Under the pieces are notes generated by a model. That model was given only the letters and a program-made list of their open reading frames with translations, was not told the origin of the DNA and ran no database searches. Positions 16,715 through 34,477 of a stretch of DNA of 46,857 nt are shown here, piece after piece. Position numbers and translations under genes: made by a program. The stretch's first letter is position 1, and each line of letters opens with the position of its first letter. The DNA is from Pseudomonadota bacterium (GTDB lineage Bacteria; Pseudomonadota; Gammaproteobacteria; Burkholderiales; Burkholderiaceae_C), in NCBI GenBank assembly GCA_031119395.1, contig JAVHYA010000017.1:20415-67271 (forward strand), read 5' to 3'.

Positions 16715-16798
16715 CTGCTTTCCGCGGCACCCACGGCGCGGGACGCCGGCGTCACCGCACGGGGTCCAGATCCCTCGACCGTTTCACGCACCACAACG

Positions 16799-16849
16799 TG
16801 TTTCTCTGTGCGAAACATGATTGTGACTGACGCAACGCCTGCCTAAAGT
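16799..16849 (+). promoter_or_regulatory. IclR-type operator plus promoter for the amidohydrolase-Bug-aldolase cluster
   Basis: TGTTTC (16799-16804) and GAAACA (16812-16817) form a perfect inverted repeat with a 7-base centre; the 17-bp core is GTTTCTCTGTGCGAAAC (16800-16816). Four bases later TTGTGA (16821-16826), a 17-base spacer and TAAAGT (16844-16849) make a credible sigma-70 promoter, 45 bases before the first gene. The core aligns without gaps to the site at 26558-26574 beside an IclR gene. Confidence 0.7.
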
Positions 16850-16894
16850 TCGTCTCGATCCCGGCGCCAAGACGCCGCGACAGGAGACGAACCG

Positions 16895-17851
16895 ATGCAC
16901 CCCCCTGCCACCCCGCCTGCGACGCTGCCCCCATCGGCACGCCCGGCCGTGGACGCGGCGGCCGTGCCGTTTTCCGCCGGCACGCAGCCACCCGTCACGG
17001 CCCTGCCGGCCGGCGCTTGCGATGCCCACATCCACGTCTACGACGCCCGCTTTCCCGCCGTGGCCGGCGCCCGCCTGAGGCCGCCGGACGCCAGCGTGGC
17101 GGACTACCGCCGCCTCCAGCAGCGCACCGGGCTGCGCCGGGCCGTCGTCGTGACCCCGTCCACCTACGGCAGCGACAACCGCCCGATGCTGCAGGCGCTG
17201 CAGGCCCTCGGCGACGATGCACGCGGCGTGGCGGTGATCGACGGCACCGAAACCGATGCCGAGCTGGCCGCCCTGCACGCCCGGGGCGTGCGCGGCGTGC
17301 GGCTGAACCTCTCGCTGGGCGTGGGCACCCATGCGGACATGCTGGCGCCCATCGCGCAGCGCATCGCCCCGCTCGGCTGGCACCTGCAGCTGCTGATGCC
17401 GGTCGACGTGCTGCTGGCGCAGGCCGCCGTGCTGTCGGCGTTGCCGGTGCCCCTGGTCTTCGACCATTTCGCGCGCCTGTCGCCCGCCGACGCCGGCCGC
17501 CACCCCGCGCATGCCGTCGTGCTGCGGCTGCTGCGCGCCGGCCGGGCCTGGATCAAGCTGTCCGGCGGCTACCTGGTGAGCCCCGAGCACAGCACCGAGG
17601 ACCCGGCGCTCGACGACCTCGCCCGCAGCTTCCTCGACGCCGCGCCCGGGCGCGTCGTCTGGGGCAGCGACTGGCCCCATGCCACCGCCTCCGCCGGCCT
17701 GCAGCCCCTGCCGGACGACGCCCGCCAGCTCGACCGGCTGGCGCAATGGACCGGCGGTGGCGAGCTGCTCGCGCAGGTGCTGGTGCGCAACCCGGCCGCC
17801 CTGTACGGCTTCGACGCCCTTCCCGAACTGCAACCACCCACCGAGACATGA
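16895..17851 (+). CDS. Amidohydrolase family protein, PDC-lactonase (LigI)-like, paralog 1
   Basis: 318 aa TIM-barrel hydrolase of the amidohydrolase_2 group. After a 40-residue Pro/Ala-rich leader the core begins ACDAHIHVYDARFP (metal- or substrate-side H45-x-H47), continues with AVVVTPSTYGSDN and VRGVRLNL, and ends with VVWGSDWPHA, the conserved C-terminal Asp. Characterised relatives are 2-pyrone-4,6-dicarboxylate lactonase, sulfomuconolactone hydrolase and sugar-acid lactonases, so a lactone of an organic acid is the likely substrate. Its stop overlaps the next Bug start by four bases. It is clearly homologous to the protein at 23775. Confidence 0.88.
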   Translation: MHPPATPPATLPPSARPAVDAAAVPFSAGTQPPVTALPAGACDAHIHVYDARFPAVAGARLRPPDASVADYRRLQQRTGLRRAVVVTPSTYGSDNRPMLQALQALGDDARGVAVIDGTETDAELAALHARGVRGVRLNLSLGVGTHADMLAPIAQRIAPLGWHLQLLMPVDVLLAQAAVLSALPVPLVFDHFARLSPADAGRHPAHAVVLRLLRAGRAWIKLSGGYLVSPEHSTEDPALDDLARSFLDAAPGRVVWGSDWPHATASAGLQPLPDDARQLDRLAQWTGGGELLAQVLVRNPAALYGFDALPELQPPTET

Positions 17852-18846
17852 ACCCCGCCTTCCCGCTCTTTTCCCTCACCCGCCGCAGCCTGATCGCCGG
17901 CAGCTGCGCCCTGCTGGCCACGGGCGGCGCCCTCGCCCAGGGCCAGTGGCCCACCGGTCGCGTCATCACCTGGGTGGTGCCCTATCCGCCCGGCGGCGGC
18001 ACCGACGTGCTGGGCCGCGCCGTGGCGCAGAAGCTCGGCGGCACGCTGGGCACCAACGTCATCGTGGACAACCGCGCCGGCGCCACCGGCACCATCGGCG
18101 CGGCCTACGTCGCCAAGTCGGCGCCCGACGGCTACACGCTGCTGGGCACCACCATCGGGCCCCAGGCCATCGCGCCGCATCTGATGGGCAAGCTGCCCTA
18201 CGACCCGATCGGCGGTTTCGCGCCGGTGGCGATCATCGGCACCATTCCGCACATCCTGGTGGTGGGTGCCAACCAGCCCTACCGCAACGTGGCCGACCTG
18301 CTGGCCGCGGCCAAGGCACAGCCCGGCAAGCTGGCCTTCGCCTCGGGCGGCACCGGCACCATCCTGCAGATGCAGGGCGAACTGCTGGCGCAGCAGACGG
18401 GCAGCCGCTTCATCCACGTGCCCTACAAGGGCGACTCGCCCGCCGTGCAGGACACGCTGGGCGAGCAGGTGAACTTCATGTTCGCCCCGGCCGCCGCGGC
18501 GCTGCCCCACGTGCAGTCCGGCCGCCTGCGGGCGCTGGCCGTCACCTCGGCCGCGCGCCTGAAGCCGCTGCCCGACGTGCCCACCATGGCGGAGGCCGGC
18601 ATCAAGGACTTCGTCGTCGAGCAGTGGCAGGCCGTCTTCGCGCCGGCCGGCACGCCGGCGCCCATCGTCGAGCGCCTGAACCGGGACGTCAACGCCGCCC
18701 TCAAGACCCCCGACCTGGTCGCCCTGGCCGACAAGCTGGGCGTGAACCTGGTGGGCGGCACGCCCGCGCAGCTGGGCGCACTGCAGAAGTCCGACTCCGC
18801 CAAGTGGGCCGAGGTCATCCGCAAGGGTGGCATCAAGGCCGACTGA
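17848..18846 (+). CDS. Bug/TctC family receptor, coupled to the amidohydrolase
   Basis: 332 aa. Starts at the ATG at 17848 within the amidohydrolase stop (ATGA). The signal peptide contains LTRRSLIAGSC, a twin-arginine-like pattern, with cleavage near residue 30 (ALA|QGQWPTG). Family marks are VVPYPPGGGTDVLGRAVAQ, IVDNRAGATGTIGAAYVAK, DGYTLLG, HVPYKGDSPAVQD and LPDVPTMAEAGIKDF. Translational coupling implies that it binds the precursor acid of the same pathway. No TctA or TctB gene is near. Confidence 0.94.
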   Translation: MNPAFPLFSLTRRSLIAGSCALLATGGALAQGQWPTGRVITWVVPYPPGGGTDVLGRAVAQKLGGTLGTNVIVDNRAGATGTIGAAYVAKSAPDGYTLLGTTIGPQAIAPHLMGKLPYDPIGGFAPVAIIGTIPHILVVGANQPYRNVADLLAAAKAQPGKLAFASGGTGTILQMQGELLAQQTGSRFIHVPYKGDSPAVQDTLGEQVNFMFAPAAAALPHVQSGRLRALAVTSAARLKPLPDVPTMAEAGIKDFVVEQWQAVFAPAGTPAPIVERLNRDVNAALKTPDLVALADKLGVNLVGGTPAQLGALQKSDSAKWAEVIRKGGIKAD

Positions 18847-18896
18847 TCCTTTCCGTTTCCTCCACCTCCCTCCTCTTCTTCCGAATCGAGCCCACC

Positions 18897-19583
18897 ATGA
18901 GCCAACTCCCCGACATCGTCCGCGACATCGAGCGCGTCTCCCCCGAAGTGGTCGCCAAGGCCGCCACCTTCCAGGCCGCCATCCTGGCCGACGTGGCCGG
19001 CCGCCGCGGCACCATGAACGCCCGCGTCGCGCCGGTCCACGAGCGCATGGTGGTGGCAGGTCCGGCCTTCACCGTCGAGGTGCGCCCCGGCGACAACCTG
19101 ATGATCCATGCCGCCATCGCGCTGGCCAAGCCGGGCGACGTGCTGGTCATCGACGGCAAGGGCGACCAGACCGCCGCGCTCATGGGCACGCTGATGCTCA
19201 GCGCCTGCAAGAAGCGCGGCCTGGCCGGCGTGATCGTCGACGGCGCCATCCGCGACAAGCTGGAGCTGCTGGAGCTGGACTTCCCGGTCTTCAGCGCCGG
19301 CTTCAACCCGGCCGGCCCCACCAAGTTCGTGCCCGGCCGCATCAACCATCCGATCTCGGCCGGCGGCGCCAGCGTCAACCCCGGTGACCTGGTGGTGGGC
19401 GACGCCGACGGCGTGGTCGTCATCGAGCGCGAGAAGGCGCCCGCCATGATGGACCTGGCCGACAGGAAGGTGGCCGACGAGGCCGCCCGCCTCGAATCCA
19501 TCGCGCGCGGCGACACCGCCGCCAAGTGGCTGCCCGCGGCCCTGCGCGCGGCCGGCGTCTTGAAGGAAGGCGAATCGCTGTGA
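18897..19583 (+). CDS. RraA-family aldolase, 4-carboxy-4-hydroxy-2-oxoadipate / HMG aldolase-like
   Basis: 228 aa, matching class II HMG/CHA aldolases (~227-238 aa). Key features are VRPGDNLMIHAAIALAKPGDV, KGDQTAALMGTLMLSACKKR and IVDGAIRDKLELLEL, whose R119-D120 correspond to the catalytic Arg and metal-ligand Asp of the G-x20-R-D-x2-E/D motif. Enzymes of this type cleave 4-hydroxy-2-oxoacids to pyruvate plus an oxoacid and often decarboxylate oxaloacetate. Lies between a Bug gene and a hydroxyacid dehydrogenase gene whose GTG start overlaps its stop. Distinguished from the RNase-inhibitor RraA by the catalytic motif and the operon. Confidence 0.9.
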   Translation: MSQLPDIVRDIERVSPEVVAKAATFQAAILADVAGRRGTMNARVAPVHERMVVAGPAFTVEVRPGDNLMIHAAIALAKPGDVLVIDGKGDQTAALMGTLMLSACKKRGLAGVIVDGAIRDKLELLELDFPVFSAGFNPAGPTKFVPGRINHPISAGGASVNPGDLVVGDADGVVVIEREKAPAMMDLADRKVADEAARLESIARGDTAAKWLPAALRAAGVLKEGESL

Positions 19584-20494
19584 GCACCGTACTCGTCACC
19601 GCCGCCGACCTGGCGCCGCAGGCCCTGGACCTGCTGAAGAACCTCGAGGTGGTCTACGCCGGCAAGACGCCGACCGAGGAGGACCTGGTGGCCCTGGCCA
19701 AGCGCCACGACCCGGTGGCCATCATCGTGCGCTACGGCAAGGTGGGCGCCGACGTGATGGACGCAGCACCGTCGCTCAAGGTCATCTCCAAGCACGGCAG
19801 CGGCACCGACACCATCGACAAGGTGGCCGCCAAGGCGCGCGGCATCGAGGTGGTGGCCGCCGTGGGCGCGAACGCCGCCGCCGTGGCCGAACAGGCCCTG
19901 GCCCTGATGCTGGCCTGCGCCAAGTCGGTGGTGTCGCTGGATGCGCGCATGCACGCCGGCCACTGGGACAAGGCCACGCACAAGAGCCTGGAACTGGGCG
20001 GCCGCACCGTCGGCCTGGTGGGCCTGGGCGCCATCGGCCAGCGCTTCGCGCGCATGGCGCATGGCATCGGCATGCGGGTGATCGGCTTCGACCCCTTCGC
20101 GAAGGACCTGCCCGACTACATCCAGACCGCGGACCTCGCCACGATCTGGCGCGAGGCCGACGTGATCTCGCTGCACTGCCCGCTGACCGACGAGAACCGC
20201 GGCATGCTCAACGCCGAGACGCTGGCCCAGTGCAAGCGCGGCGTGATCGTGGTCAACACCGCGCGTGGCGGCCTGATCGACGAGGCGGCGCTGCTGGCCG
20301 CCGTGCAGTCGGGCCAGGTGGCCAGTGCTGGCCTGGACAGCTTCGCGGTCGAGCCGATGACGGCGGGCCACCCCTTCCAAGGCCAGGAGCGCATCGTGCT
20401 CAGCCCGCACATCGGCGGTGTGACCAGCGACGCCTACGTCAACATGGGCGTGGGGGCCGCGAAGAACCTGCTGGCGGTGCTGGAACGCGGCTGA
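19580..20494 (+). CDS. D-isomer-specific 2-hydroxyacid dehydrogenase, NAD-binding
   Basis: 304 aa starting at GTG 19580, which overlaps the aldolase stop (GTGA) and is preceded by GAAGGAAGG. Rossmann motif VGLVGLGAIGQRFARMAHG (GxGxxG at ~148-153). The catalytic Arg is in VVNTARGGLIDEAALL, the Glu in FAVEPM, and the His in LSPHIGG. Interconverts a 2-oxoacid and a 2-hydroxyacid in the cytoplasm. Coupled to the aldolase, it may oxidise the hydroxyacid feeding it or reduce its oxoacid product (inference). Confidence 0.92.
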   Translation: MSTVLVTAADLAPQALDLLKNLEVVYAGKTPTEEDLVALAKRHDPVAIIVRYGKVGADVMDAAPSLKVISKHGSGTDTIDKVAAKARGIEVVAAVGANAAAVAEQALALMLACAKSVVSLDARMHAGHWDKATHKSLELGGRTVGLVGLGAIGQRFARMAHGIGMRVIGFDPFAKDLPDYIQTADLATIWREADVISLHCPLTDENRGMLNAETLAQCKRGVIVVNTARGGLIDEAALLAAVQSGQVASAGLDSFAVEPMTAGHPFQGQERIVLSPHIGGVTSDAYVNMGVGAAKNLLAVLERG

Positions 20495-20501
20495 GGTCCG
20501 C

Positions 20502-20521
20502 GGCCGGCGAACGCGCCGGCC
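20502..20521 (+). terminator. GC hairpin between the dehydrogenase and MBL-hydrolase genes
   Basis: GGCCGGC (20502-20508) pairs with GCCGGCC (20515-20521) over 6 bases, just after the dehydrogenase stop. Without a T tract it is more likely a transcript-stabilising or attenuating structure than a full terminator. Confidence 0.45.
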
Positions 20522-20569
20522 CCTGGCGAAGCGCCCACCACGACAGCCCATCCCGAAGGAGACAAGACC

Positions 20570-21586
20570 ATGACCCCCCGACGTTCCGGCGGCCTGCTCG
20601 CCGCCGCACTCGCCACCGTGCTGTGGGGCTGCGCCAGCCCCCCGCCGGCAACCCTGGGCCCATCCGAGGCCAGCATCGCGGCCCATGTCGCCGCGGCCAC
20701 GCGCGCCGCGGGCAGCGATCTGGGCGAGGTGCTGACGCTGTGCAAGCCGGTGCCCACCGCCCGGCCGGTGCAGGACGAGGCCGCCGACCGCGGCCTGCGC
20801 GCGCTGATCGCCCGTCCTGCCCCGCCGCCGGGCCGTGCCTTCGACAACCTGTACTTCGTGGGCGGCGACTGGGCCAGTGCCTGGGCCATCGACACGCCCG
20901 AGGGCATCATCCTGATCGACGCCCTCAACAACCAGGTCGAGGCGACGGCCCTGATCGAGGGCGGCATGCGCAAGCTGGGTCTGGACCCGGCGCGCATCCG
21001 CTACATCGTGGTCAGCCATGGCCATGGCGACCACTACGGCGGTGCGCCCTACCTGGCGCAGAAGTACGGCGCCCGCGTGGTCATGAGCGACATCGACTGG
21101 ACCATGATGGAGACGCGGCTGGAATTCGCCACGCCCATCTGGGGCGCGCCGCCCAAGCGCGACATCAGCGTCAAGGACGGCGACAAGCTGACGCTCGGGG
21201 GCACCAGCCTCACGCTGTACGTGACGCCCGGCCACACCTGGGGCACGCTGTCGCCGGTGTTCGACGTCACCTGGCAGGGCAAGAAGCACCGCGTGCTGCT
21301 GTGGGGCGGCACCGGCTTCAACTTCGGCGCCGACATTCCGCGCATGGAAAGCTACGGCCGCTCGACGCAGCGCATGGCGCAGGTCGTGCGCGCCGAAGGC
21401 ATCGACGTGATGCTGTCCAACCATTCGCGCGTGGACGGCTCGCAGGGCAAGCTGGCCCGGCTGCGCGAGGCCGGCGGCACCGGCCCCAACCCGTTCGTGG
21501 TGGGCGAGCCGACCGTCGAGCGCACGCTGACCGTCATGAACGAATGCTCGCTGGCCCAGCGAGACCGTTTCGCCCTGCTGCGCTGA
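20570..21586 (+). CDS. Exported metallo-beta-lactamase-fold hydrolase (subclass B3-like)
   Basis: 338 aa from the ATG at 20570, preceded by AAGGAGA. The N-terminus is a signal with a lipobox-like VLWGC (Cys 21), so it is probably an exported lipoprotein. The MBL domain has the full zinc set of a B3-like enzyme: SHGHGDHYGG (H150, H152, D154, H155), VTPGHTWG and SNHSRVDGS. Substrate unknown. The context of two amidohydrolases and an SMP-30 protein makes a periplasmic lactonase or esterase as likely as a beta-lactamase. Seventy-five bases separate it from the dehydrogenase gene. Confidence 0.88.
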   Translation: MTPRRSGGLLAAALATVLWGCASPPPATLGPSEASIAAHVAAATRAAGSDLGEVLTLCKPVPTARPVQDEAADRGLRALIARPAPPPGRAFDNLYFVGGDWASAWAIDTPEGIILIDALNNQVEATALIEGGMRKLGLDPARIRYIVVSHGHGDHYGGAPYLAQKYGARVVMSDIDWTMMETRLEFATPIWGAPPKRDISVKDGDKLTLGGTSLTLYVTPGHTWGTLSPVFDVTWQGKKHRVLLWGGTGFNFGADIPRMESYGRSTQRMAQVVRAEGIDVMLSNHSRVDGSQGKLARLREAGGTGPNPFVVGEPTVERTLTVMNECSLAQRDRFALLR

Positions 21587-21590
21587 GCGC

Positions 21591-21646
21591 GCAGGCGCCC
21601 GTCCGCCGCCGCCCTCGCAGGGGCCGGACGGCAGCCGGGCGCCTGC
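21591..21646 (+). terminator. Long nested inverted repeat after the MBL-hydrolase gene
   Basis: GCAGGCGCCCG (21591-21601) pairs exactly with CGGGCGCCTGC (21636-21646). Inside, GTCCG (21601-21605) can pair with CGGAC (21625-21629). A further stem GCGGCCC / GGGCCGC flanks ATGCATG at 21694-21714. The gap thus holds strong structure between two parts of the cluster. Confidence 0.55.
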
Positions 21647-21737
21647 CGGACCGGCCGTCGCGCCAGCGGGTTCGACCGGGCACCTGAACCGAAGCGGCCC
21701 ATGCATGGGGCCGCCCCGACTCTCACAAGGAAACATC

Positions 21738-22715
21738 ATGAAGACATCCGCCGTCAAGGCCGCCCTGCTGGCCGCGATCACCGCCCTCGGCTTCAACGCA
21801 TCCGCGCCGGCACAACCGGCCTGGCCCGAGCGGCCGATCAAGCTGGTCGTGCCCTACCCCGCGGGCGGCAACGCCGACAGCACGGCCCGGCTGCTGGCCA
21901 CGCAGTTGTCGGACCGGCTGGGCCAGCAGGTCCTGGTGGACAACCGCCCGGGTGGCGGCGGCACCATCGGCGCCACCGCGGTGGCGAAGGCGCCCGCCGA
22001 CGGCTACACGCTGCTGCTCGACGCGACGGCCTTCACCGTCAACCCGAGCCTGTTCAGCAAGCTGGCCTACGACCCGACCAAGGACTTCGCGCCGATCTCG
22101 CAGATCACCCGCGTGCCCATGCTGCTCGTGGTGCCCGCCGCCTCGCCGCTGAAGTCGGTCGCCGACCTGGTTCGCGCCGCGAAGGCTTCGCCCGGCAAGC
22201 TGAGCTATGCCTCCGCCGGCAACGGGGGCGCGCAGCATCTGGCCGCCGAGCTCTACAAGCAGGGCACCAAGCTCTCGATGGTGCACATCCCCTACCGCGG
22301 CGGTGCGCCCGCACTGACGGACCTGGCGGGCGGCCAGGTGGACCTGATGTTCAGCGCCACCTCGGCATCGGGCACCTTCGTGAAGAGCGGCAAGCTGCGT
22401 GCACTGGCCATCACCTCCGCCGAGCGCTCCGCGGACTGGCCGGACCTGCCGACGGTGGCCGAAGGCGGACTGCCGGGCTTCGCGGTCTACGAGTGGAACG
22501 GGCTCTTCGCGCCGGCGGGCACGCCGCCGGCCGTGCTGCAGCGGCTGGAGACCGAGACGCGCGCGGCGCTGTCCTCGCCAGAGCTGAAGTCACGCCTGTC
22601 GGACCTGGGCGTGCAGCCGGTGGGCTCCAGCAGCGCGGACTTCCGCCGCTTCGTCCAGGCGGAGACCACGCGATGGGCCGACGTCATCAAGCGCGCGGGC
22701 ATCCGCATGGATTGA
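21738..22715 (+). CDS. Bug/TctC family receptor
   Basis: 325 aa from the ATG at 21738 (AAGGA upstream). Signal peptide of 25 residues, then QPAWPERPIKLVVPYPAGGNADSTARLLATQL, VDNRPGGGGTIGATAVAK, DGYTLLL, HIPYRGGAPALTDLAGGQVD and LPTVAEGGLPGFAVYEWNGLF. The stretch GFAVYEWNGLFAPAGTP is nearly identical to one in the receptor at 28702-29673, so those two are close relatives and may bind similar ligands. First of two consecutive Bug genes ahead of the second amidohydrolase. Confidence 0.94.
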   Translation: MKTSAVKAALLAAITALGFNASAPAQPAWPERPIKLVVPYPAGGNADSTARLLATQLSDRLGQQVLVDNRPGGGGTIGATAVAKAPADGYTLLLDATAFTVNPSLFSKLAYDPTKDFAPISQITRVPMLLVVPAASPLKSVADLVRAAKASPGKLSYASAGNGGAQHLAAELYKQGTKLSMVHIPYRGGAPALTDLAGGQVDLMFSATSASGTFVKSGKLRALAITSAERSADWPDLPTVAEGGLPGFAVYEWNGLFAPAGTPPAVLQRLETETRAALSSPELKSRLSDLGVQPVGSSSADFRRFVQAETTRWADVIKRAGIRMD

Positions 22716-22782
22716 GCGCAATCGCTGCCTGCCCGTCTTGTCCGCTGCGTGCAGCCGACCCAACATCCAGCCTTCACACACC

Positions 22783-23778
22783 ATGACCTCCTCCAATACC
22801 CGGGCGCTGCGGCGCCGCGCCACCGCCGCGCTGCTGGCCCTGCCTCTTCTTGCAGCATCCACCCTCGCCTCGGCGCAGACCGACTGGCCCAACCGCACGG
22901 TGAAGATCGTCGTTCCCTATGCCCCCGGCGGCGCGGTGGACGTCGTGACGCGCAAGATGGCGCAGAAGCTCGGCGAGCAGACCGGCCAGAGCTTCATCGT
23001 CGAGAACAAGCCCGGCGCCAGCAGCACCATCGGCGCCATGCAGGTGGCCCGGTCCGAGCCGGATGGCTACACCCTGGTGGCCAACGACACGACCTATGCG
23101 CTCCTGCCGCACATCTTCAGGAAGCTGCCCTTCGACCAGGCCAACGACCTGCTGCCCGTCAGCGCCTTCGTGTTCGCGCCGCTGACGCTGGCGGTGAATG
23201 GCAACTCGCCCTACAAGAGCCTGCCCGAGCTGCTGGCCTTCGCGAAGGCCCACCCGGGCCGCGTGACCTACGGCAGCGGCGGCGCCGGCACGCTGCCGCA
23301 CTTCAGCGCGGAAGCCCTGGGCCTGGCGACCGGCACCAAGCTGCTGCACGTTCCCTTCAAGGGCGCGGCCGAGGCCACGCAGGCCGTGCTGGGCGGCACG
23401 ATCGACATGCAGTTCGCCTCGCCGTCGGGCGTGATCGGCAATGTCAAGGGCGGCAAGCTGCGCCTGCTGGCCATCAGCGGCGACCGCCGCGTGCCCCTGC
23501 TGCCCGACGTGCCCACCTTCGCCGAGGCCGGCGTGAAGGACTTCGGCGTGATCAACTGGACGGGCCTGTGGGCGCCGAAGGGCACGCCGCCGGCCGTCAT
23601 GCAGCGTCTGCAGGCCGAGATCGCCAAGGCCATGAAGACGGAGGACATGAAGGCCTTCTCCGAAAGCGTGGCCGCGGAGCCGCGCCAGCTCGACGCCGAG
23701 GCCTTCGGCAGGCTGCTCAAGGACAGCACGGCGCGCTGGGGACGGGTGGTGGCCCAATCCGGCTTCGAGAAGCAATGA
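22783..23778 (+). CDS. Bug/TctC family receptor, coupled to the second amidohydrolase
   Basis: 331 aa from the ATG at 22783. Signal peptide with RRR at ~10-12, cleavage near residue 31 (ASA|QTDWPNRTV). Family marks are IVVPYAPGGAVDVVTRKMAQ, VENKPGASSTIGAMQVAR, DGYTLVA, HVPFKGAAEATQAVLGG and LPDVPTFAEAGVKDFGV. A 67-base gap separates it from the preceding Bug gene; its own stop overlaps the following amidohydrolase start (ATGA at 23775). This mirrors the amidohydrolase-Bug pair at 16895-18846 in reverse order. Confidence 0.94.
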   Translation: MTSSNTRALRRRATAALLALPLLAASTLASAQTDWPNRTVKIVVPYAPGGAVDVVTRKMAQKLGEQTGQSFIVENKPGASSTIGAMQVARSEPDGYTLVANDTTYALLPHIFRKLPFDQANDLLPVSAFVFAPLTLAVNGNSPYKSLPELLAFAKAHPGRVTYGSGGAGTLPHFSAEALGLATGTKLLHVPFKGAAEATQAVLGGTIDMQFASPSGVIGNVKGGKLRLLAISGDRRVPLLPDVPTFAEAGVKDFGVINWTGLWAPKGTPPAVMQRLQAEIAKAMKTEDMKAFSESVAAEPRQLDAEAFGRLLKDSTARWGRVVAQSGFEKQ

Positions 23779-24701: not shown

Positions 24702-24715
24702 CAAAGCGAAGACCC

Positions 24716-25630
24716 ATGTTCCTTCTGCAACAGCCCCAGGTGCGCGAACTGACCCTGTTCAGCGCCATGCCCGACGAGTTCCGGCGTCCGCGCCGCAGCG
24801 ACTGGGCCGACGCCAACCGCGGCGGCACGCCCACCGACTCCTTCCTCGAAGGCCCGGTGTTCGACGATGCCGGCAACCTCTACGTGACCGACATTCCCTG
24901 GGGTCGCATCTTCCGCATCGACCGCGAAGGCCACTGGTCGCTGGTGGCCGAATACGACGGCGAGCCCAACGGCATGAAGTTCCTCGACGCCGGCACGCTG
25001 CTCATCACCGACTACAAGAACGGACTGATGCAGCTGGACGTGGCCAGCGGCCGCGTCTCGCCCTTCCTGCCGCGGCGCAACAGCGAGCGCTTCAAGGGTG
25101 TGAACGACCTGGTCTTCGACCGCGCCGGCAACCTGTACTTCACCGACCAGGGCCAGACCGGCCTGCACGACCCCACCGGCCGGCTCTACCGCCTGTCGCC
25201 GGACGGCCGGCTGGACCAACTGCTGGGCAACATCCCCAGCCCCAACGGCGTGGCGCTGTCGCCCGACGAGAAGGTGCTCTACCTGGCCGTGACCCGCGGC
25301 AATTGCGTGTGGCGCGTGCCGCTGCTGCCGGACGGCAGCGTCTCGAAGGTGAGCCAGTTCTTCACCTCCTACGGCCCCAGCGGCCCCGACGGCCTGGCCG
25401 TGGACGCGCAGGGCCGCGTGCTGGTGGCCAACCCCGGACTGGGCTACCTGTGGGTGCTCGACACGCGGGCCGAACCGGTGCAGGTGCTGCGCGGCCCGGC
25501 CGGTGCATCGATCACCAACCTGGCCTTCGGCGGACCCGAGCGGCGCACGGTTTTCGTCACCGACTCCACGCATGGCCGCGTGCTGACGGCGGACCTGGAC
25601 GTGCCCGGCCTGCCGCTCGCGCGGCGTTGA
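24716..25630 (+). CDS. SMP-30/gluconolactonase/LRE family protein
   Basis: 304 aa beta-propeller, starting at ATG 24716, 14 bases after the amidohydrolase stop. Calcium/zinc-lactonase landmarks are LEGPVFDDAGNLYVTDIPWGRI (metal Glu), GVNDLVFDRAGNLYFTDQG, SPNGVALSPDEKVLYLA (metal Asn) and GPDGLAVDAQGRVLVANPG (metal Asp). The family hydrolyses sugar-acid or other lactones. As the last gene of the plus-strand cluster it supplies another ring-opening hydrolase. No signal peptide, so cytoplasmic. Confidence 0.91.
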   Translation: MFLLQQPQVRELTLFSAMPDEFRRPRRSDWADANRGGTPTDSFLEGPVFDDAGNLYVTDIPWGRIFRIDREGHWSLVAEYDGEPNGMKFLDAGTLLITDYKNGLMQLDVASGRVSPFLPRRNSERFKGVNDLVFDRAGNLYFTDQGQTGLHDPTGRLYRLSPDGRLDQLLGNIPSPNGVALSPDEKVLYLAVTRGNCVWRVPLLPDGSVSKVSQFFTSYGPSGPDGLAVDAQGRVLVANPGLGYLWVLDTRAEPVQVLRGPAGASITNLAFGGPERRTVFVTDSTHGRVLTADLDVPGLPLARR

Positions 25631-25685
25631 GCGAGCCAAGTCACCGAGTCAGCAGTCCGGAAAGACCGCGGAGCAGACCACGCCG

Positions 25686-25792
25686 GCGCACCCGCGGAAC
25701 TGGCTTCGCCAGGCCGCAGGATGCGCCCCCTCCAAGCCGAAGGCGCCACAGAGGGGGGAGCCGCGAAGCGGCTTGGGGGGTGCCTTCAAGGA
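25686..25792 (-). repeat. Dispersed intergenic repeat, family 1 copy b
   Basis: The reverse complement carries GGGGGCGCATCCTGCGGCC, TGGCGAAGCC and TTCCGCGGGTGC, matching the blocks at 1285-1345. An internal GAAGCGGCTTGGGGGG arm can pair with an upstream C run. It fills the gap between the convergent SMP-30 gene and the IclR gene and reaches the IclR stop. Possibly a bidirectional terminator. Confidence 0.75.
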
Positions 25793-26547
25793 TGCCAGCG
25801 CGACACGACCGGCGGCGTGGCGGGCGAGCGCCCGCCGGCCAGCGCATACGACAGCTGGTTGGCCGCCGCCACCACGCTTTTCGCGTGGGTCTCGAGCTTC
25901 GCACGCGTGAGCCGTGAGCTGGGCCCCGAGATGCACATCGACCCCAGCAGGTGCCAGCCGGTGCGGAACACCGGCGCGGCCACGCTCGACACGTCGGGCT
26001 CGCGCTCGCCCAGCGACAAGTGGTAGCCGCAGGTGCGGATCGTCTCGTAGGGCTCGCCCTGCGCACCGCTGAAGGCCAGGATCACCCGCCCCGGCGCGCC
26101 CAGATCCAGAGGCAGCCGTGCGCCGATGCGCACATGGTGCCGCACCGACTGCGGCCCCTCCACACGGGCGACGCAGGCGCGGATGTCGCCTTCGCGCACG
26201 TAGAAGGACGCGCTCTCGCCGCTCAGCCGCACCAGCTCGTGCAGCGCCGGCTCGACCACGTTGTTGACGTCGAAGCCGGCCTGGTAGCGCGCGCCCAGCC
26301 AGCCCGCTGCCGGCCCCAGCCGCCATTGGCCGGCCTCGGTCTGCACCATGTAGTTCGATTGCGCCAGGGTGCGCGCCAGGCGCAGCACCGTGGTCTTGTG
26401 CATGCCGCTGCGGCGGCTCAGTTCGGCCAGGGTGAGGGCCGACTCGCCGACCTCGAAGGCCTCCATCAGCGAGAGCGCACGGGTGACGGCGATCACGCCG
26501 CCGTCGCCGCGCCCTTCGGCCGCCTCTTTCGGGGAATCGTTGCGCAT
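25786..26547 (-). CDS. IclR family transcriptional regulator, paralog 1
   Basis: 253 aa from the ATG at 26547. Winged helix-turn-helix at ~18-80 (VTRALSLMEAFEVGES, LAELSRRSGMHKTTVLRLARTL). The IclR effector domain follows (GRVILAFSGAQGEPYETIR, HLLGSMCISGPSSRLT). It is divergent from the Bug gene at 26660 and convergent with the 16895-25630 cluster. The operator-like site in its own promoter matches one at the head of that cluster, so it probably controls both itself and the cluster. Closely related to the regulator at 31024 (shared LGPAAGWLG-RYQA-FDV). Upstream in-frame extension rejected because it crosses the operator. Confidence 0.92.
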   Translation of the reverse strand: MRNDSPKEAAEGRGDGGVIAVTRALSLMEAFEVGESALTLAELSRRSGMHKTTVLRLARTLAQSNYMVQTEAGQWRLGPAAGWLGARYQAGFDVNNVVEPALHELVRLSGESASFYVREGDIRACVARVEGPQSVRHHVRIGARLPLDLGAPGRVILAFSGAQGEPYETIRTCGYHLSLGEREPDVSSVAAPVFRTGWHLLGSMCISGPSSRLTRAKLETHAKSVVAAANQLSYALAGGRSPATPPVVSRWHP

Positions 26548-26557
26548 GTCGGACCTC

Positions 26558-26607
26558 GGTTCGCTGAACGAAACGACATTGTATGGATTGAAACCCCCAC
26601 CTAGAGT
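26558..26607 (+). promoter_or_regulatory. IclR-type operator plus promoter, IclR/Bug divergon
   Basis: The 17-bp core GGTTCGCTGAACGAAAC (26558-26574) contains TTCG-N5-CGAA. Four bases later TTGTAT (26579-26584), a 17-base spacer and TAGAGT (26602-26607) give a promoter for the Bug gene at 26660. The region aligns gap-free with 16800-16826: G-TTC-CTG--CGAAAC then ATTGT. It lies 11 bases from the IclR start, so binding would also control the regulator. Confidence 0.7.
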
Positions 26608-26659
26608 GCGCTCCGGGACGCGATTCCTGCGTTCAGAACACACCGTCGGAGACAAACCC

Positions 26660-27631
26660 GTGAAGACATCCCGCCGCGCCGCGCTGGCGCTCGCCGCCGC
26701 ATCCCTGCTCGCCGCCACCGTGGCCCAGGCCGACACCTGGCCCGCACGTCCGATCCGCCTGGTGGTGCCCTTCCCGGCCGGCGGCGGCACCGACATCATT
26801 GCCCGCGAGCTGGCCAACAAGCTCACCAGCTACGGCTACAACTTCGTGGTGGACAACAAGCCCGGCTCCGGCGGCAACCTGGGCGTCGACGCCGCCGCCA
26901 AGGCCGCACCCGACGGCTACACGCTGGTGCTGGGCCAGACCAGCAACCTGGCGATCAACCCGACGCTCTACACCAAGCTGCCGTACGACCCGCTGAAGGA
27001 CCTGACGCCGATCAGCCTCGTGGCGACCTCGCCGCTGGTGATCGTGGCCGGCACCGCCACGCCCTACAAGACGCTGGGCGACGTGGTGAAGGCGGCGAAG
27101 GCCAAGCCCGACAGCATCAACTACGCCTCCTCGGGCAACGGCACCGTGGCCCACCTGGCCATGGAGTCCTTCCAGAAGGCGGCGGGCGTCAAGCTCACGC
27201 ACATTCCGTACAAGGGCGCGGCCCAGGGCGTCACCGACGTGATCAGCGGCCAGGTGCAGCTGTACGTGTCGTCGGTGCCCACGCTGCTGCCCCACATCAA
27301 GTCCGGCAAGATGCATGCGCTGGCGCTCACCTCGCTGCAGCGCGCGTCGGACCTGCCGCAGGTCCCCACGGTGGCCGAGTCGGGCTACAAGGGCTTCGAG
27401 GCCATCACCTGGTTCGGCATCGCGGGGCCGGCCGGCCTGCCCAAGGAGATCGTGGCCAAGCTCAATGCCGACATCAACAAGGCGCTGCAGGATCCGGCGC
27501 TCAAGCAGAAGCTCTCGGGCCAAGGGGCCGACGTGCAGGGCAGCAGCGCGGCCGACTTCGCCAAGCTGATCCGCGACGACATCCCGCGCTGGGGCAAGCT
27601 GGTGAAGGACTCGGGCGCCAAGGTGGACTGA
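26660..27631 (+). CDS. Bug/TctC family receptor
   Basis: 323 aa from GTG 26660, chosen because GGAGA precedes it and a clean signal peptide follows ([20 protein letters not shown], cleavage after ~24, AQA|DTWP). Family marks are LVVPFPAGGGTDIIARELANK, VDNKPGSGGNLGVDAAAK, DGYTLVLG, HIPYKGAAQGVTDVISG and LPQVPTVAESGYKGFEA. Single gene between the IclR regulator and convergent Bug genes, with its own operator-linked promoter. It is probably the dedicated receptor of the IclR paralog 1 regulon. Confidence 0.94.
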   Translation: MKTSRRAALALAAASLLAATVAQADTWPARPIRLVVPFPAGGGTDIIARELANKLTSYGYNFVVDNKPGSGGNLGVDAAAKAAPDGYTLVLGQTSNLAINPTLYTKLPYDPLKDLTPISLVATSPLVIVAGTATPYKTLGDVVKAAKAKPDSINYASSGNGTVAHLAMESFQKAAGVKLTHIPYKGAAQGVTDVISGQVQLYVSSVPTLLPHIKSGKMHALALTSLQRASDLPQVPTVAESGYKGFEAITWFGIAGPAGLPKEIVAKLNADINKALQDPALKQKLSGQGADVQGSSAADFAKLIRDDIPRWGKLVKDSGAKVD

Positions 27632-27646
27632 AGCCCGGCGCCGCGC

Positions 27647-28633
27647 TCACTCGGTCGTGAGCAGGCCCGACGCGATCAGGCCCCGGTAGGTCTCGACCTG
27701 GCGCGCGAGGAACTGCTCGAACTCGGCGGCCGGCATGCGCGTGGGCACGCCGCCGATGTCCTCCACATGCCGCCGCACCGCGGCATCGGCCAGCACCGCG
27801 TCGTTGGCCTCCACCAGGCGCTTGACCACGGCCGGCGGCACGTCCTTCGGCGCCATCAGCGCGGTGAAGGGGGCGATATCCACCTCGGGCTGCTTGAGCT
27901 GTGCCATGGTCGGCACGTCGGGCAGCGACGGCACGCGCTGGCCGAACACGGTGCCGATGGCGCGCAGCCGGCCGGCCTTGACCAGTTGCAGGGCCGAGGG
28001 CAGGTCGGTGGCCACGGCATCGAGCTGCCCGCCCAGCAGGTCCTGCACGGCCGGGCCCGCGCCCTTGTAGCCGACGATGACGAACTGACCGCCCAGCGCC
28101 TTCTGCAACTGCAGGATGTTGACGTGGCCGGCCGTGCCGTTGCCGGGATGGCCGAACTTCACCTCGCGCGGATGCGCCTTCACGTGGGCCGCGAAGTCGG
28201 CATAGCTGCGGATGGGTGAATTCGCACTCACCACCAGCACGCCGGGCACCTGCGTCAGCAGCGCCACCGGCTTGAAGTCCTTCAGGCCGTACTGCGCGGC
28301 CTTGCCCGCGAGCTGCCAGCTCGAGACGATGGGACCGGTGGTGCCGATCATCAGCGTGTAGCCGTCGGCCTCCGCCTTCGCCACCTGCGTGGCGCCGATC
28401 ATGCCGCCGGCCCCGCCCTTGTTGTCCACCACGAAGGGCTGCTTCAGGCGGCGTGCGTAGGCCTCCGCGAAGATGCGCGCCGTGCTGTCGGCATTGCCGC
28501 CGGGCACGAAGGGCACGACGATCTTGACGGCGCGGCTGGGGTAGCCGGCCTCCTGCGCGAGGGCCGGGCCGAGGCCCAGTGCCATGGCAGCGGCAATCAC
28601 GGCGGTGCGCCGCGTGAGGAGGGTGGAATGCAT
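27647..28633 (-). CDS. Bug/TctC family receptor
   Basis: 328 aa from the ATG at 28633. Signal peptide ending ALA|QEAGYPSRAVK (~26). Family marks are IVVPFVPGGNADSTARIFAEA, VDNKGGAGGMIGATQVAK, DGYTLMIG, IVGYKGAGPAVQDLLGGQLD and LPDVPTMAQLKQPEVDI. The usual PYKG is GYKG here. Last gene of the minus-strand unit headed by the alpha-hydroxyacid oxidase, 68 bases after the preceding Bug gene and convergent with the Bug gene at 26660. Confidence 0.93.
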   Translation of the reverse strand: MHSTLLTRRTAVIAAAMALGLGPALAQEAGYPSRAVKIVVPFVPGGNADSTARIFAEAYARRLKQPFVVDNKGGAGGMIGATQVAKAEADGYTLMIGTTGPIVSSWQLAGKAAQYGLKDFKPVALLTQVPGVLVVSANSPIRSYADFAAHVKAHPREVKFGHPGNGTAGHVNILQLQKALGGQFVIVGYKGAGPAVQDLLGGQLDAVATDLPSALQLVKAGRLRAIGTVFGQRVPSLPDVPTMAQLKQPEVDIAPFTALMAPKDVPPAVVKRLVEANDAVLADAAVRRHVEDIGGVPTRMPAAEFEQFLARQVETYRGLIASGLLTTE

Positions 28634-28701
28634 GTCTGTCTCCGGTTCGAAGGAAAAAAAGGGGGCGGCGGCGGGGCCCCGTCGTCGGGCCGCGACCACG
28701 C

Positions 28702-29673
28702 TCAGTCCTGCTTGATGTCGCCCTTGCGGATCACCTCGGACCAGGTCGCGTCTTCCTTCTTCAGGTAGTCGACGAATTCGGCCGGCGTGGAGCCGACGAC
28801 CTGTGCGCCCACGTCGCCGAAGCGCTGGCGCACCTCGGGCTCGCGCAGCGTTTCCGACAGCGCCTTGTGCAGCGTGTCGGTCACCTCGCGCGGCGTGCCC
28901 TTGGGCACGAAGAGGCCGTTCCACTCGTACACGGCGAAGCCGGGGATCACGGTCTCGGCCACGGTGGGCACCTCGGGCAGCCGCGGCGAACGCTGCGGCG
29001 ACGAGATGGCCAGCGCCCGCAGCTTGCCGCTGTCCACCAGGGGCGAGGAGGCGGCGACGGTGCTGAACATGAAGTCCACCTGCCCGCCCATCACGTCGGT
29101 GATGGCCGGTCCGCCGCTCTTGTAGGGCACGTGCACCATGTCCAGGCCCAGCTTCTGGCGAAACAGTTCCGAGGCCAGGCGCTGCACGGTGCCGCTGCCG
29201 CCGGAGGCGAAGTTGATCTTGCCGGGCCGGGCCTTGGCCTGGCTCACCAGGTCGCCCACCGTCTTGTAGCCCGAGCCGGCCTTGACGATCAGGATGTTGG
29301 GCGCCAAGGACACCAGAGACAGCGGCTCCAGCGCCGAGGTCTGGAAGGGCATCTGCGGAAACAGGTGCGGATTGATCGAGTAGGGCGTGGCGTCGTAGAG
29401 CAGCGTGTAGCCGTCGTTGCGCGCCTTGGCCACGAAGGCGGCGCCGATGGTGCCGCTGGCGCCGGCCCGGTTGTCGATGATCACGCTGGTGCCCAGGCGC
29501 GCGCCCATGCGGTTGGCCACGATGCGGGCCAGCGCATCGGCCGCACCGCCCGGCGCATAGGGCACCACGATCGTGATGGGGCGGTCGGGATAGGCGGCCA
29601 GCGCGCCCGCGCAGGCGCCCAGCGCCAGCAGGGCCGCGGCCAGGGGGCGCAGCGTCATCTTGAAGAGGGTCAT
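28702..29673 (-). CDS. Bug/TctC family receptor, coupled to the alpha-hydroxyacid oxidase
   Basis: 323 aa from the ATG at 29673, which overlaps the oxidase stop (ATGA) and has AAGGAGA upstream. Signal peptide MTLFKMTLRPLAAALLALGA, cleavage near 26. Family marks are IVVPYAPGGAADALARIVANR, IDNRAGASGTIGAAFVAK, DGYTLLY, HVPYKSGGPAITDVMGGQVD and LPEVPTVAETVIPGFAVYEWNGLF. It resembles the receptor at 21738 in the ligand-proximal segments, suggesting related ligands across the two cassettes. Confidence 0.94.
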   Translation of the reverse strand: MTLFKMTLRPLAAALLALGACAGALAAYPDRPITIVVPYAPGGAADALARIVANRMGARLGTSVIIDNRAGASGTIGAAFVAKARNDGYTLLYDATPYSINPHLFPQMPFQTSALEPLSLVSLAPNILIVKAGSGYKTVGDLVSQAKARPGKINFASGGSGTVQRLASELFRQKLGLDMVHVPYKSGGPAITDVMGGQVDFMFSTVAASSPLVDSGKLRALAISSPQRSPRLPEVPTVAETVIPGFAVYEWNGLFVPKGTPREVTDTLHKALSETLREPEVRQRFGDVGAQVVGSTPAEFVDYLKKEDATWSEVIRKGDIKQD

Positions 29674-30935
29674 GGTTCGTCTCCTTGGAATGAATGGGAA
29701 GGCAGGTGCACGCGGGCCAGGCGTTCGGGGCCGAGTTGCTCGAGCCGCTCCACGCCCAGCAGTGCCATGTCGCGGTGGATCTCGTCCTTGAGCAGGCGGA
29801 CGGCGTGCGCCACCCCGGCCTGGCCGCCGATGGCGGCGGCATAGGCCATGGGCCGGCCGACGAAGACGTGGTCGGCGCCCAGCGACAGGGCCTTGAGCAC
29901 GTCGGTGCCGCGGCGCACGCCGCTGTCGAGCATCAGGGCCATGGCGCCCTTGGCGCGTGCCGCCTCGGGCAGCGCCAGCAGCGGCGGCAGCGTGCCGTCG
30001 AGCTGACGCCCGCCGTGGTTGGACAGGATCACGCCGTCGGCGCCGGCCTGCTCGGCGCGGCGCACGTCGTCGGCCGAGACCAGGCCCTTGATCACCAGCT
30101 TGCCGCGCCAGAGCCGCCGCACCAGCGCCAGGTGTTCCCAGCTGAGGTGGTCGCGCAGGCCGAACTGGCGCACCACGCTGCGCGAGATGATGGGCACGCC
30201 GCGGCCCGCACCCGCGTTCTCGAAGTGCGGCATGCCGTGCGTGAGCAGCGTGCGTGCGAGCGTGCCGGCCAGCCATCGCGGGCGCACCAGTCCGTCCATC
30301 GCCAGGCGCAGCGACGGGCGCAGGGGCGTCGAGAAGCCCACGCGCACGTTGTTCTCGCGGTTGGCCAGCGTGGCGGTGTCCACCGTCACGACCAGGGTGC
30401 GGAAGCCGGCCTTCTCCACGCGGTCGACCAGGCCCTCGATGTGGGCCGGCTCGCCGGGGATGTAGGCCTGGAACCAGCCGCAGGTGGGCGCGGCCTCGGC
30501 CACGCGCTCCATCCGGGTCAGCGAGGCGCCGCTGAGCACGTGCGGAATGCCGGCCGCCTCGGCCGCGCGGGCCATGGCCACGTCGCCGTCGTAGGCGAAC
30601 AGGGCGCACAGGCCCATGGGCGCGATGCCGAAGGGCGCCTGGTAGGTCTGGCCCATCAGCTGCACCGCCTGCTGGCGGGCCGACACGTTGACCAGCACCT
30701 GCGTGCGGAACATCCACTGCCGGAAGGCCGCGGTGTTGGCCTGCAGGGTGACGTTGTCCTCCACGCCGCCCTGCAGGTAGCCGAAGATGGGGCGCGGCAG
30801 CACGCGCCGTGCGGCCGGCTCCAGGTCGCGCAGCGAGAGGATGGCGCGAAGCCGTGGGGGCAGCTGGCGGCGCGCATCGGGCGCCGGGCCGAGTTGCGGC
30901 CTGGCCAGCGGGGGAGTGGGGAATGGCGTGCTCAT
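29670..30935 (-). CDS. FMN-dependent alpha-hydroxyacid oxidase/dehydrogenase
   Basis: 421 aa from the ATG at 30935 (MSTPFPTP). FMN-dependent TIM barrel of the glycolate oxidase / lactate dehydrogenase / lactate 2-monooxygenase family. FMN and catalytic motifs are APFGIAPMGLCALFAYDGD, TLVVTVDTATLANRENNVR, VIKGLVSADDVRRAEQAGAD, and DGVILSNHGGRQLDGT with the catalytic His and Arg, then GADHVFVGRPMAYAAA. Oxidises a 2-hydroxyacid to the 2-oxoacid. It is cotranscribed with two Bug receptors and has an operator-like site in its promoter, so its substrate is probably an imported hydroxyacid or a hydrolysed lactone. Confidence 0.92.
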   Translation of the reverse strand: MSTPFPTPPLARPQLGPAPDARRQLPPRLRAILSLRDLEPAARRVLPRPIFGYLQGGVEDNVTLQANTAAFRQWMFRTQVLVNVSARQQAVQLMGQTYQAPFGIAPMGLCALFAYDGDVAMARAAEAAGIPHVLSGASLTRMERVAEAAPTCGWFQAYIPGEPAHIEGLVDRVEKAGFRTLVVTVDTATLANRENNVRVGFSTPLRPSLRLAMDGLVRPRWLAGTLARTLLTHGMPHFENAGAGRGVPIISRSVVRQFGLRDHLSWEHLALVRRLWRGKLVIKGLVSADDVRRAEQAGADGVILSNHGGRQLDGTLPPLLALPEAARAKGAMALMLDSGVRRGTDVLKALSLGADHVFVGRPMAYAAAIGGQAGVAHAVRLLKDEIHRDMALLGVERLEQLGPERLARVHLPSHSFQGDEP

Positions 30936-30972
30936 GGCGGAGTTGGATCGGCCGCCTGTGCAGCCCGAATCC

Positions 30973-31022
30973 ATTGGACGTGCCTGCCCCCGCCCAGGGC
31001 AACGCGTTACGCAGCGTGGAAC
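30973..31022 (-). promoter_or_regulatory. IclR-type operator plus promoter for the alpha-hydroxyacid oxidase operon
   Basis: The 17-bp core GTTACGCAGCGTGGAAC spans 31006-31022 and sits just past the IclR paralog 2 stop. On the minus strand, three bases downstream, TTGCCC (31002-30997), an 18-base spacer and TCCAAT (30978-30973) form a promoter about 40 bases ahead of the oxidase start. It shares GTTACGC, a central G and GAAC with the site at 31867-31883. Confidence 0.6.
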
Positions 31023-31023
31023 G

Positions 31024-31788
31024 TCAGGGATGCCAGGTGGCGCGCAGCGCCGTGGCCGGCATGCCGCCCAGCGCGATGCCCAGTTGCCGCGCCGCCGCCA
31101 CCGTGGGGGGCGCCAGCCGGCGCAGGCGCGCGACGGTCAGGCGCGCCGCCGGACCTGCGGTGCTGATGGCGCCCAGCACCATGCCCTGCGCGCCACGCAC
31201 TGCGGCCGCCACGGCGGCGGCCTCGCTGTCGCGCTCGCGGCGCGCGTAGTGAAAGCCCTGGCGGCGGATGCGCTCGTACAGGTCGCCCGGCTCGCCCAGC
31301 GCGGCGAGGATGACGCGTCCCGGCGCACCCCGGTCCAGCGGCAGCACCTCGCCCGAGCGCACGTGGTCGGGCAGGGCCGCGGGGCCATCGCAGCGCATCA
31401 GGCAACTGCGCAGGTTGCCCTCGTGCACGTAGAAGGCGGCGCTCTCGCCGGTCTCGGCACACAGCTGCTTGAGGATCGGCTCGATGGCGGAGTCGACGTC
31501 GAACTGCGCCTGGTAGCGCGAGCCCAGCCATCCCGCGGCGGGGCCCAGGCGCCAGGCGCCGTCCTCGCGCGGCACCAGGAAGCGCGACACCGCCAGCGTG
31601 CGCGCCAGCCGCAGCACGGTGGGCTTGTGCATGCCGGTGCGCCTGGCCAGTTCGGCCAGCGGCAGGAACACCTCGCGGCCATCGAAGGCCGACAGGATGG
31701 CGATCGCCCGCCCCACGGCCTGCACCTGGCCGGAGCGCGCGCCGCGGGCGGCGTCGCTCGCGCGTGCGGTCTGCAACAGCGCGCGCAT
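31024..31788 (-). CDS. IclR family transcriptional regulator, paralog 2
   Basis: 254 aa from the ATG at 31788 (MRALLQTARASD), a start that matches the length of paralog 1 and keeps the operator at 31867 outside the gene. Other in-frame ATGs lie at 31887 and 31923. Helix-turn-helix around ~25-80 (AVGRAIAILSAFDGRE, LAELARRTGMHKPTVLRLARTL). Effector domain with GAPGRVILAALGEPGDLYERIR and MVLGAISTAGPAARLT. Clearly paralogous to 25786-26547. It lies between the oxidase operon and the divergent lactonase, both with similar operators, so it probably controls both. Confidence 0.88.
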   Translation of the reverse strand: MRALLQTARASDAARGARSGQVQAVGRAIAILSAFDGREVFLPLAELARRTGMHKPTVLRLARTLAVSRFLVPREDGAWRLGPAAGWLGSRYQAQFDVDSAIEPILKQLCAETGESAAFYVHEGNLRSCLMRCDGPAALPDHVRSGEVLPLDRGAPGRVILAALGEPGDLYERIRRQGFHYARRERDSEAAAVAAAVRGAQGMVLGAISTAGPAARLTVARLRRLAPPTVAAARQLGIALGGMPATALRATWHP

Positions 31789-31866
31789 GTCCGCATCCGG
31801 GCGAAGGTCGGCCGCCCGCACGGCGCGCGTGGACCGTGCGCTTTCCGCCGGAAGGGAACCATGCGC

Positions 31867-31915
31867 GTTACGCGCTGCAGAACGCATTGCAGTGATGGCC
31901 GGAGAGCTCGATGAT
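31867..31915 (+). promoter_or_regulatory. IclR-type operator plus promoter, IclR paralog 2 / lactonase divergon
   Basis: The 17-bp core GTTACGCGCTGCAGAAC (31867-31883) is followed after three bases by TTGCAG (31887-31892), a 17-base spacer and GATGAT (31910-31915), reading toward the lactonase. Flanking ATGCG and CGCAT extend the symmetry. It shares ten consecutive bases, CGCGTTACGC, with the site before the oxidase operon. Confidence 0.6.
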
Positions 31916-31999
31916 CGTTGCATTGTGCGGCGCGCCGCAAAGGCCCGGCGGCACGACCTGCGCCGACGGCGACCTCCCCTCCCGATTCCTTCCATCCTC

Positions 32000-33163: not shown

Positions 33164-33188
33164 CCCGCCGCCGAGGAAGGCCGCGGAC

Positions 33189-34457: not shown

Positions 34458-34477
34458 GTGTGTCGGTTTCCTTGCAT

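Follow-up and report, generated by a model that had tools for sequence, protein, structure and literature searches.

Do the four promoters of a catabolic gene cluster that carries two IclR-family regulators answer to one operator, or does each regulator keep its own? The question arises in a 46,857-nucleotide stretch of DNA (contig JAVHYA010000017.1 of a Pseudomonadota bacterium, positions 20,415 to 67,271; hereafter the window), whose 5.1-Mb draft genome I compared as a member of Xenophilus. A sequence-only reading had proposed that four 17-mers with the frame GNT-N11-AAC are a single operator joining the two paralogs, here called IclR1 and IclR2, in one regulon. Judged from sequence comparison, the four sites look like two operator classes that follow two related, neighbouring regulators rather than one shared switch, and the locus very probably holds two adjacent autoregulated IclR-family modules, each with a private operator.

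The four 17-mers do lie at 16800 (GTTTCTCTGTGCGAAAC, site 1), 26558 (GGTTCGCTGAACGAAAC, site 2), 31006 on the minus strand (GTTCCACGCTGCGTAAC, site 3) and 31867 (GTTACGCGCTGCAGAAC, site 4). As had also been described, a TTG-type -35 begins 3-4 bases past each site, with a -10 spaced 17-18 bases from it, giving TTGTGA-17-TAAAGT, TTGTAT-17-TAGAGT, TTGCCC-18-TCCAAT and TTGCAG-17-GATGAT for sites 1 to 4, and these elements are largely retained in orthologous promoters. The supposition that the shared frame stands above chance fails: GNT-N11-AAC has 30 matches in the window versus 33.5 (standard deviation 5.75) in shuffled sequence, and a tighter palindrome, GTTNC-N7-GNAAC, has 28 places in the genome versus 27 for its reversed control. 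Since the frame is not enriched, evidence for function must come from relatives. A genome-wide search for the regulon from 17-mers was abandoned because neither the original frame nor looser palindromes are enriched and the IclR2 motif falls below its control, and it was replaced by comparison of orthologous promoters and by a 37-bp pattern covering two palindromes. Conservation at orthologous promoters, a check that the sequence-only reading had itself named, is found for sites of both classes.

Sites 1 and 2 are each the middle member of three tandem 17-bp palindromes with centres 19 and 20 bp apart, and the last (inner) palindrome of each array overlaps the -35 of its target. I scored these with matrices trained outside the genus on 22 IclR1 operators (the row for locus L015 being its outer palindrome) and 11 IclR2 operators. 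Array 2 lies between iclR1 (25786..26547, minus strand) and the divergent bug5 (26660..27631, plus strand), which encodes a TctC/Bug-type binding protein (PF03401). Its outer palindrome (GGTCCGACATGCGCAAC, 26539..26555, minus strand; 6.1 bits by the IclR1 matrix, rank 8 in the window) lies over the iclR1 start codon and is found in the same position at 20 loci spread over 12 other genera, a conservation that may partly be coding. Site 2 (26558..26574, plus strand), a predicted IclR1-type operator and the best match in the window (20.6 bits, rank 1), overlies the predicted iclR1 transcription start. The inner palindrome (ATTGTATGGATTGAAAC, 26578..26594, plus strand) contains the bug5 -35 TTGTAT (26579-26584), ahead of the bug5 -10 TAGAGT (26602-26607), and carries on its opposite strand the iclR1 -10 TACAAT (26583-26578). 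The same 20 loci strongly conserve both the middle and the inner palindrome, together with the -35 and most of the -10. Their consensus toward bug5 reads GTTGCtCatgGTGC.AT.c GTTTCgtTGTaTGcAAC g.c ATTGTATgGgtTGAAAC, then TAaAGT; the inner palindrome, with consensus ATTGTATgGgtTGAAAC, is the best-conserved part of the array. These 20 are drawn from 25 IclR1-side loci outside the genus, five of the 20 coming from one genus (g109), and L015, L104, L107, L109 and L110 were left out for want of a clear middle site or an aligned array. Within 26578-26607 the bug5 -35 and the iclR1 -10 are the same bases on opposite strands (ATTGTA/TACAAT), so the two promoters should exclude each other.

Array 1 stands ahead of amh1 (16895..17851, plus strand), an amidohydrolase gene (PF04909) and the first of the catabolic run. 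Its outer palindrome (GTTTCACGCACCACAAC, 16781..16797, plus strand; rank 4 by the IclR1 matrix) has the form GTTTC-N7-ACAAC, present in all six other amh1 promoters aligned. Site 1 (16800..16816, plus strand), likewise a predicted IclR1-type operator, scores 19.4 bits (rank 2), and the inner palindrome (ATTGTGACTGACGCAAC, 16820..16836, plus strand), weak by the matrix (2.9 bits, rank 14) and retained in amh1 promoters, overlaps the -35 TTGTGA (16821-16826), with the -10 TAAAGT at 16844-16849. The whole row keeps its order and spacings in the window and the six other loci.

The arrays also travel with the regulator. The 37-bp pattern for the middle and inner palindromes, with up to two mismatches, was searched for in 36 genomes. 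The nearest kin with iclR2, strain E41, was deposited as Xenophilus, and its two records (G009 and G014) are one strain, counted once, with G014 not included in this search. Two arrays were found in all nine Xenophilus genomes with iclR1 and one array in 12 of 13 non-Xenophilus genomes with iclR1. Among the 14 genomes without an IclR1 ortholog (which include G010 and G021, with relatives of 42-43% identity), only G002 gives a match, with two mismatches and in a 2.2-kb stretch without relatives of the window genes; out of the 36, the reversed control gave one match in G016 and one in G018. The window genome holds only the two known arrays within three mismatches, and the control none. Because the patterns were partly shaped on site 1, its perfect match is not independent evidence, which lies instead in the absence of other array matches and in the co-occurrence across genomes. 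The second array of G012 was checked and adjoins amh1 on its upstream side. In two other genera (G024 and G017) the amh1 block follows immediately after bug5, whereas in Xenophilus it lies on the far side of iclR1, and thus is separated from bug5 and has an array of its own, which may have been copied during rearrangement of the block.

Sites 3 and 4 belong to a different set of promoters, those of iclR2 (31024..31788, minus strand) and its neighbours, and are here read as eroded copies of a predicted IclR2 operator, GTTACG-N5-CGTAAC. Site 3 (31006..31022, minus strand) is a predicted IclR2-type operator just past the iclR2 stop and ahead of hao, with its -35 TTGCCC at 31002-30997 and -10 TCCAAT at 30978-30973. 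Site 4 (31867..31883, plus strand), predicted to be of the same type, precedes a divergent gene for a lactonase-family 7-bladed beta-propeller protein (PF10282; 32012..33163, start approximate, plus strand), with the lactonase-side -35 TTGCAG at 31887-31892 and -10 GATGAT at 31910-31915; on the minus strand lies the iclR2 -10 TGCAAT (31891-31886). Here too the lactonase -35 and the iclR2 -10 share bases on opposite strands (ATTGCA/TGCAAT), the same geometry as at iclR1/bug5.

Of 17 iclR2 loci, setting aside the two E41 records and four distant loci (62-63%) leaves 11 close orthologs (69-82%), from Acidovorax, Achromobacter, Polaromonas, Variovorax, Ramlibacter, Cupriavidus, Ottowia and a Burkholderiaceae metagenome-assembled genome. 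The operator stands ahead of iclR2 in all 11, exact in ten and with one change in L115. Where hao is the next gene downstream, as it is in eight of the 11, a second operator always lies between iclR2 and hao (seven exact; two changes in L114), and none follows iclR2 in the three loci where hao is not next (L117, L119 and L121). In the four distant loci, one exact palindrome follows the regulator gene. The two places conserved in the close orthologs correspond to sites 4 and 3 of the window, in which the CGTAAC half is exact and the other half changed, identically in E41. By eye, no tandem arrangement is seen for IclR2 operators in the aligned promoters. A scan of 22 whole genomes for the exact operator gives nine places in six genomes, all no more than about 140 bp from an IclR2-clade gene, but as these six are apparently among the genomes that supplied the iclR2 loci, the search tests specificity and not independent recurrence. 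The exact form is absent from the other 16 of the 22, and the window genome and G009 have IclR2 yet no exact copy; the reversed control gave four places in two genomes (two each in G428 and G032).

Several observations weigh against a clean division into two classes. Five of the 25 IclR1-side loci outside the genus are without a clear array, and G026 has iclR1 and no array within two mismatches. Sites 3 and 4 carry two mismatches each and are only two of 24 such places in the genome, where the reversed control has 161; given their erosion, their assignment in this strain rests on synteny and footprint, not on motif strength. The recognition helices of the two proteins differ by one residue only. 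Finally, site 1 (11.1 bits, rank 1) outscores sites 3 and 4 (10.2 bits each, joint rank 2) on the IclR2 matrix, where site 2 has 7.0 bits, and site 3 obtains 10.4 bits (rank 5) on the IclR1 matrix, where site 4 has 5.1 bits (rank 9). The IclR2 matrix alone therefore does not set site 1 apart from the eroded sites 3 and 4, and letters by themselves do not divide the sites cleanly in this strain. I attribute the lead of site 1 to that erosion, and there may be cross-binding or cross-regulation between the two modules. The IclR2 matrix gives its own orthologs, each left out in turn, 20.6-28.8 bits versus 7.0-11.1 for all four window sites, and under neither matrix do all four window sites match as well as the orthologs do.

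Distribution is a weightier argument than letters: as far as the compared genomes indicate, each operator class follows its own regulator. Xenophilus genomes with IclR1 and no IclR2 ortholog retain the arrays at sites 1 and 2, and IclR2 operators persist in the 11 close loci with no IclR1-clade gene within the 9-13 kb compared (L113 has a 35% relative). G173, which has both regulators, has both operator types, each at its own module, and the classes remain distinct there. Position 4 of the operator is mostly T or G in the IclR1 class, versus A in ten of the 11 non-Xenophilus IclR2 operators, with C in the eroded Xenophilus halves. That both paralogs read one operator, joining all four promoters in a single cross-wired regulon, is for these reasons unlikely, although both operators share the family frame GTT-N11-AAC, the helices are nearly identical (HKTTVLRL and HKPTVLRL), the cross-scores exceed background and the two kinds of module are neighbours in G173 as well. 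Of the original proposal, what stands is that IclR-type operators lie at the promoters of both iclR genes and of neighbouring catabolic and Bug genes; one operator common to all of them does not, since the sites split into two classes that track two regulator clades. In G173 (L148 and L149), iclR1, a second IclR2-clade gene and iclR2 lie within about 17 kb, each with its own operator. This similar neighbourhood hints at a functional tie between the two modules.

The clades are visible in a tree of 55 proteins, in which all 17 IclR2-side proteins (the IclR2 of E41, 97% identical, standing for that of the window) form one clade (100/98) and 35 IclR1-side proteins group together more weakly (87/47). 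The helix begins HKPT on the IclR2 side and HKTT on the IclR1 side, a difference at position 29; L020 and L026, with AKPT, were assigned to neither class. The equivalent residue of TtgV, Ser48, touches DNA according to one comparative study (PMC8222616). That the change from Thr to Pro helps to switch operator letter 4 from T or G to A is only a lead, because it is one change on one branch and confounded with others.

Why, then, are the IclR2 operators of Xenophilus degraded? They could be decaying relics, with hao and the lactonase gene no longer under IclR2 control in that genus; in both sites one palindrome half is gone, and the orthologs in other genera are mostly exact. I consider this improbable, since E41 has both 17-mers letter-identical in surroundings that differ at many places and has kept an intact, 97% identical IclR2, though E41, one strain under two handles, supplies one comparison only. 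Both sites have lost the same half (in the direction of iclR2, GTTC-- and then CGTAAC), and it is conceivable, though unlikely, that the two shifted jointly toward recognition by an altered IclR2 or by a complex mixing IclR1 and IclR2, which if true would fuse the two modules into one circuit. Mixed operators as the cause of erosion are weakened by G173 and G428, which have both regulators and exact IclR2 operators; as a counterpoint, Acidovorax sp. MR-S7 (L114) likewise shows an altered left half in the operator that follows iclR2. The block bug6-bug7-hao-iclR2-lactonase (27600-33160) separates bug5 from fah in the window and E41 alone, and bug5 adjoins fah in the eight other Xenophilus compared (G013, G011, G006, G005, G007, G001, G008 and G012), so that the block was either gained in the window and E41 or lost in the others. 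Last, the four 17-mers might fit a loose frame near promoters by coincidence. The unenriched frame and loose palindrome in window and genome would speak for this, but it is scarcely credible given that the IclR1 sites are conserved position by position in 20 loci from 12 genera and the IclR2 sites in all 11 close non-Xenophilus iclR2 loci, and that operators co-occur with regulators.

How might two such modules work? The DNA itself shows that there are two operator classes, that their places are conserved and that they co-occur with the two regulators; from this I infer binding and the sign of control. IclR1 would bind three 17-bp palindromes in a row, spaced by about two turns of DNA, both at iclR1/bug5 and ahead of amh1. 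IclR2 would bind single palindromes of the GTTACG-N5-CGTAAC type, one at its own promoter, shared with the divergent lactonase gene, and the other in the gap separating iclR2 from hao. At all four target promoters the operator is centred near -48 from the predicted start. Both iclR genes are probably self-repressed, as the operators nearest to them cover their predicted starts. Because the inner palindrome covers the target -35, I lean slightly toward IclR1 repressing both targets until a ligand changes occupancy. Ligand-dependent activation from the -48 site, as with PobR and PcaU, would be the main alternative, and for IclR2 it may be as likely or likelier, since its single site leaves the -35 free. 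The enzymes encoded suggest that the ligands are perhaps lactones or hydroxy or keto acids.

The remaining gene content fits around these two modules as follows. The catabolic run reads amh1, bug, RraA-like aldolase, hydroxyacid dehydrogenase, metallo-beta-lactamase (MBL)-fold hydrolase, bug, bug, amh2 and lactonase, and is followed by iclR1, divergent from bug5, then bug6, bug7, hao and iclR2 (all minus strand), the divergent lactonase-family gene and fah. Both regulators carry the HTH_IclR and IclR_C domains above cut-off: IclR1 (253 amino acids) with 43.7 bits for PF09339 and 79.7 for PF01614, IclR2 (254 amino acids) with 39.8 and 59.3. Orthologs of IclR1 within the genus are 87-96% identical. 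The hao gene (29670..30936, minus strand), downstream of iclR2, encodes an alpha-hydroxy-acid oxidase of the flavin mononucleotide-dependent type (PF01070), and its start at 30936 is favoured by a 1-bp indel between strains upstream of that position. Seven TctC/Bug-like binding-protein genes lie in about 18 kb (17869-35449), two confirmed by Pfam and the rest assigned by sequence likeness. The MBL-fold protein of the catabolic run (20570-21586) resembles subclass B3 metallo-beta-lactamases below their cut-offs (NF033105, 127.7 of 240 bits), and is perhaps a hydrolase of the pathway.

How far do these modules resemble known IclR systems? The second-best NCBIfam match of both proteins is TIGR02431, the PcaU/PobR/PcaR group of the same family, at 97.9 and 76.3 bits, far below the cut-off of 284.75. 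PcaU, PobR and PcaR are activators of aromatic catabolism, and their operators have different letters from those of IclR1 and IclR2. TtgV of Pseudomonas putida is a repressor that controls efflux transporters, unlike the targets here; its tetramer-type binding is the model borrowed for the tandem IclR1 sites. In Suvorova and Gelfand (2021; PMC8222616), TtgV is described as an IclR-family regulator solved on DNA (PDB 2XRO), the equivalent recognition-helix positions are tabulated, and PcaU/PobR/PcaR-type operators with an extra box are reported. The same study gives a group 1 motif subgroup, GTT-11-AAC, as GTTYCRYW3RYGRAAC, and tandem sites with centres 18-22 bp apart in 94 of 181 groups, so that these are not obligatory. 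Both operators share with this subgroup, as described there, their length, outer letters and symmetry and, as targets, the regulator's gene itself and one or two neighbouring operons, and the IclR1 spacings of 19 and 20 bp fall within the 18-22 range. Most relatives of both clades have the GTT-11-AAC ends at their own promoter, as do sites 1, 3 and 4 of the window, site 2 starting with GGT. Unlike the published consensus, with Y at position 4, IclR2 has A, and the IclR1 halves have T, which fits, or G, which does not; three sites in a row, as for IclR1, likewise set it apart from the subgroup as presented there.

Motif class, tandem spacing and control of self and neighbours are thus already described for the IclR family in that study (PMC8222616), and the two systems are a well-conserved but ordinary kind of bacterial gene control. 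Among the literature matches listed on IclR regulators and their motifs, neither operator is described in the titles or the openings of the abstracts, and no paper was listed on IclR in Xenophilus. For two regulators that occur in many Comamonadaceae and in some other Burkholderiales, the finding supplies an operator and a list of targets that can be tested. It also provides a natural pair of adjacent paralogs whose operators are distinct although their recognition helices are almost the same, and if the one-residue difference matters, this pair would test how IclR paralogs avoid cross-talk.

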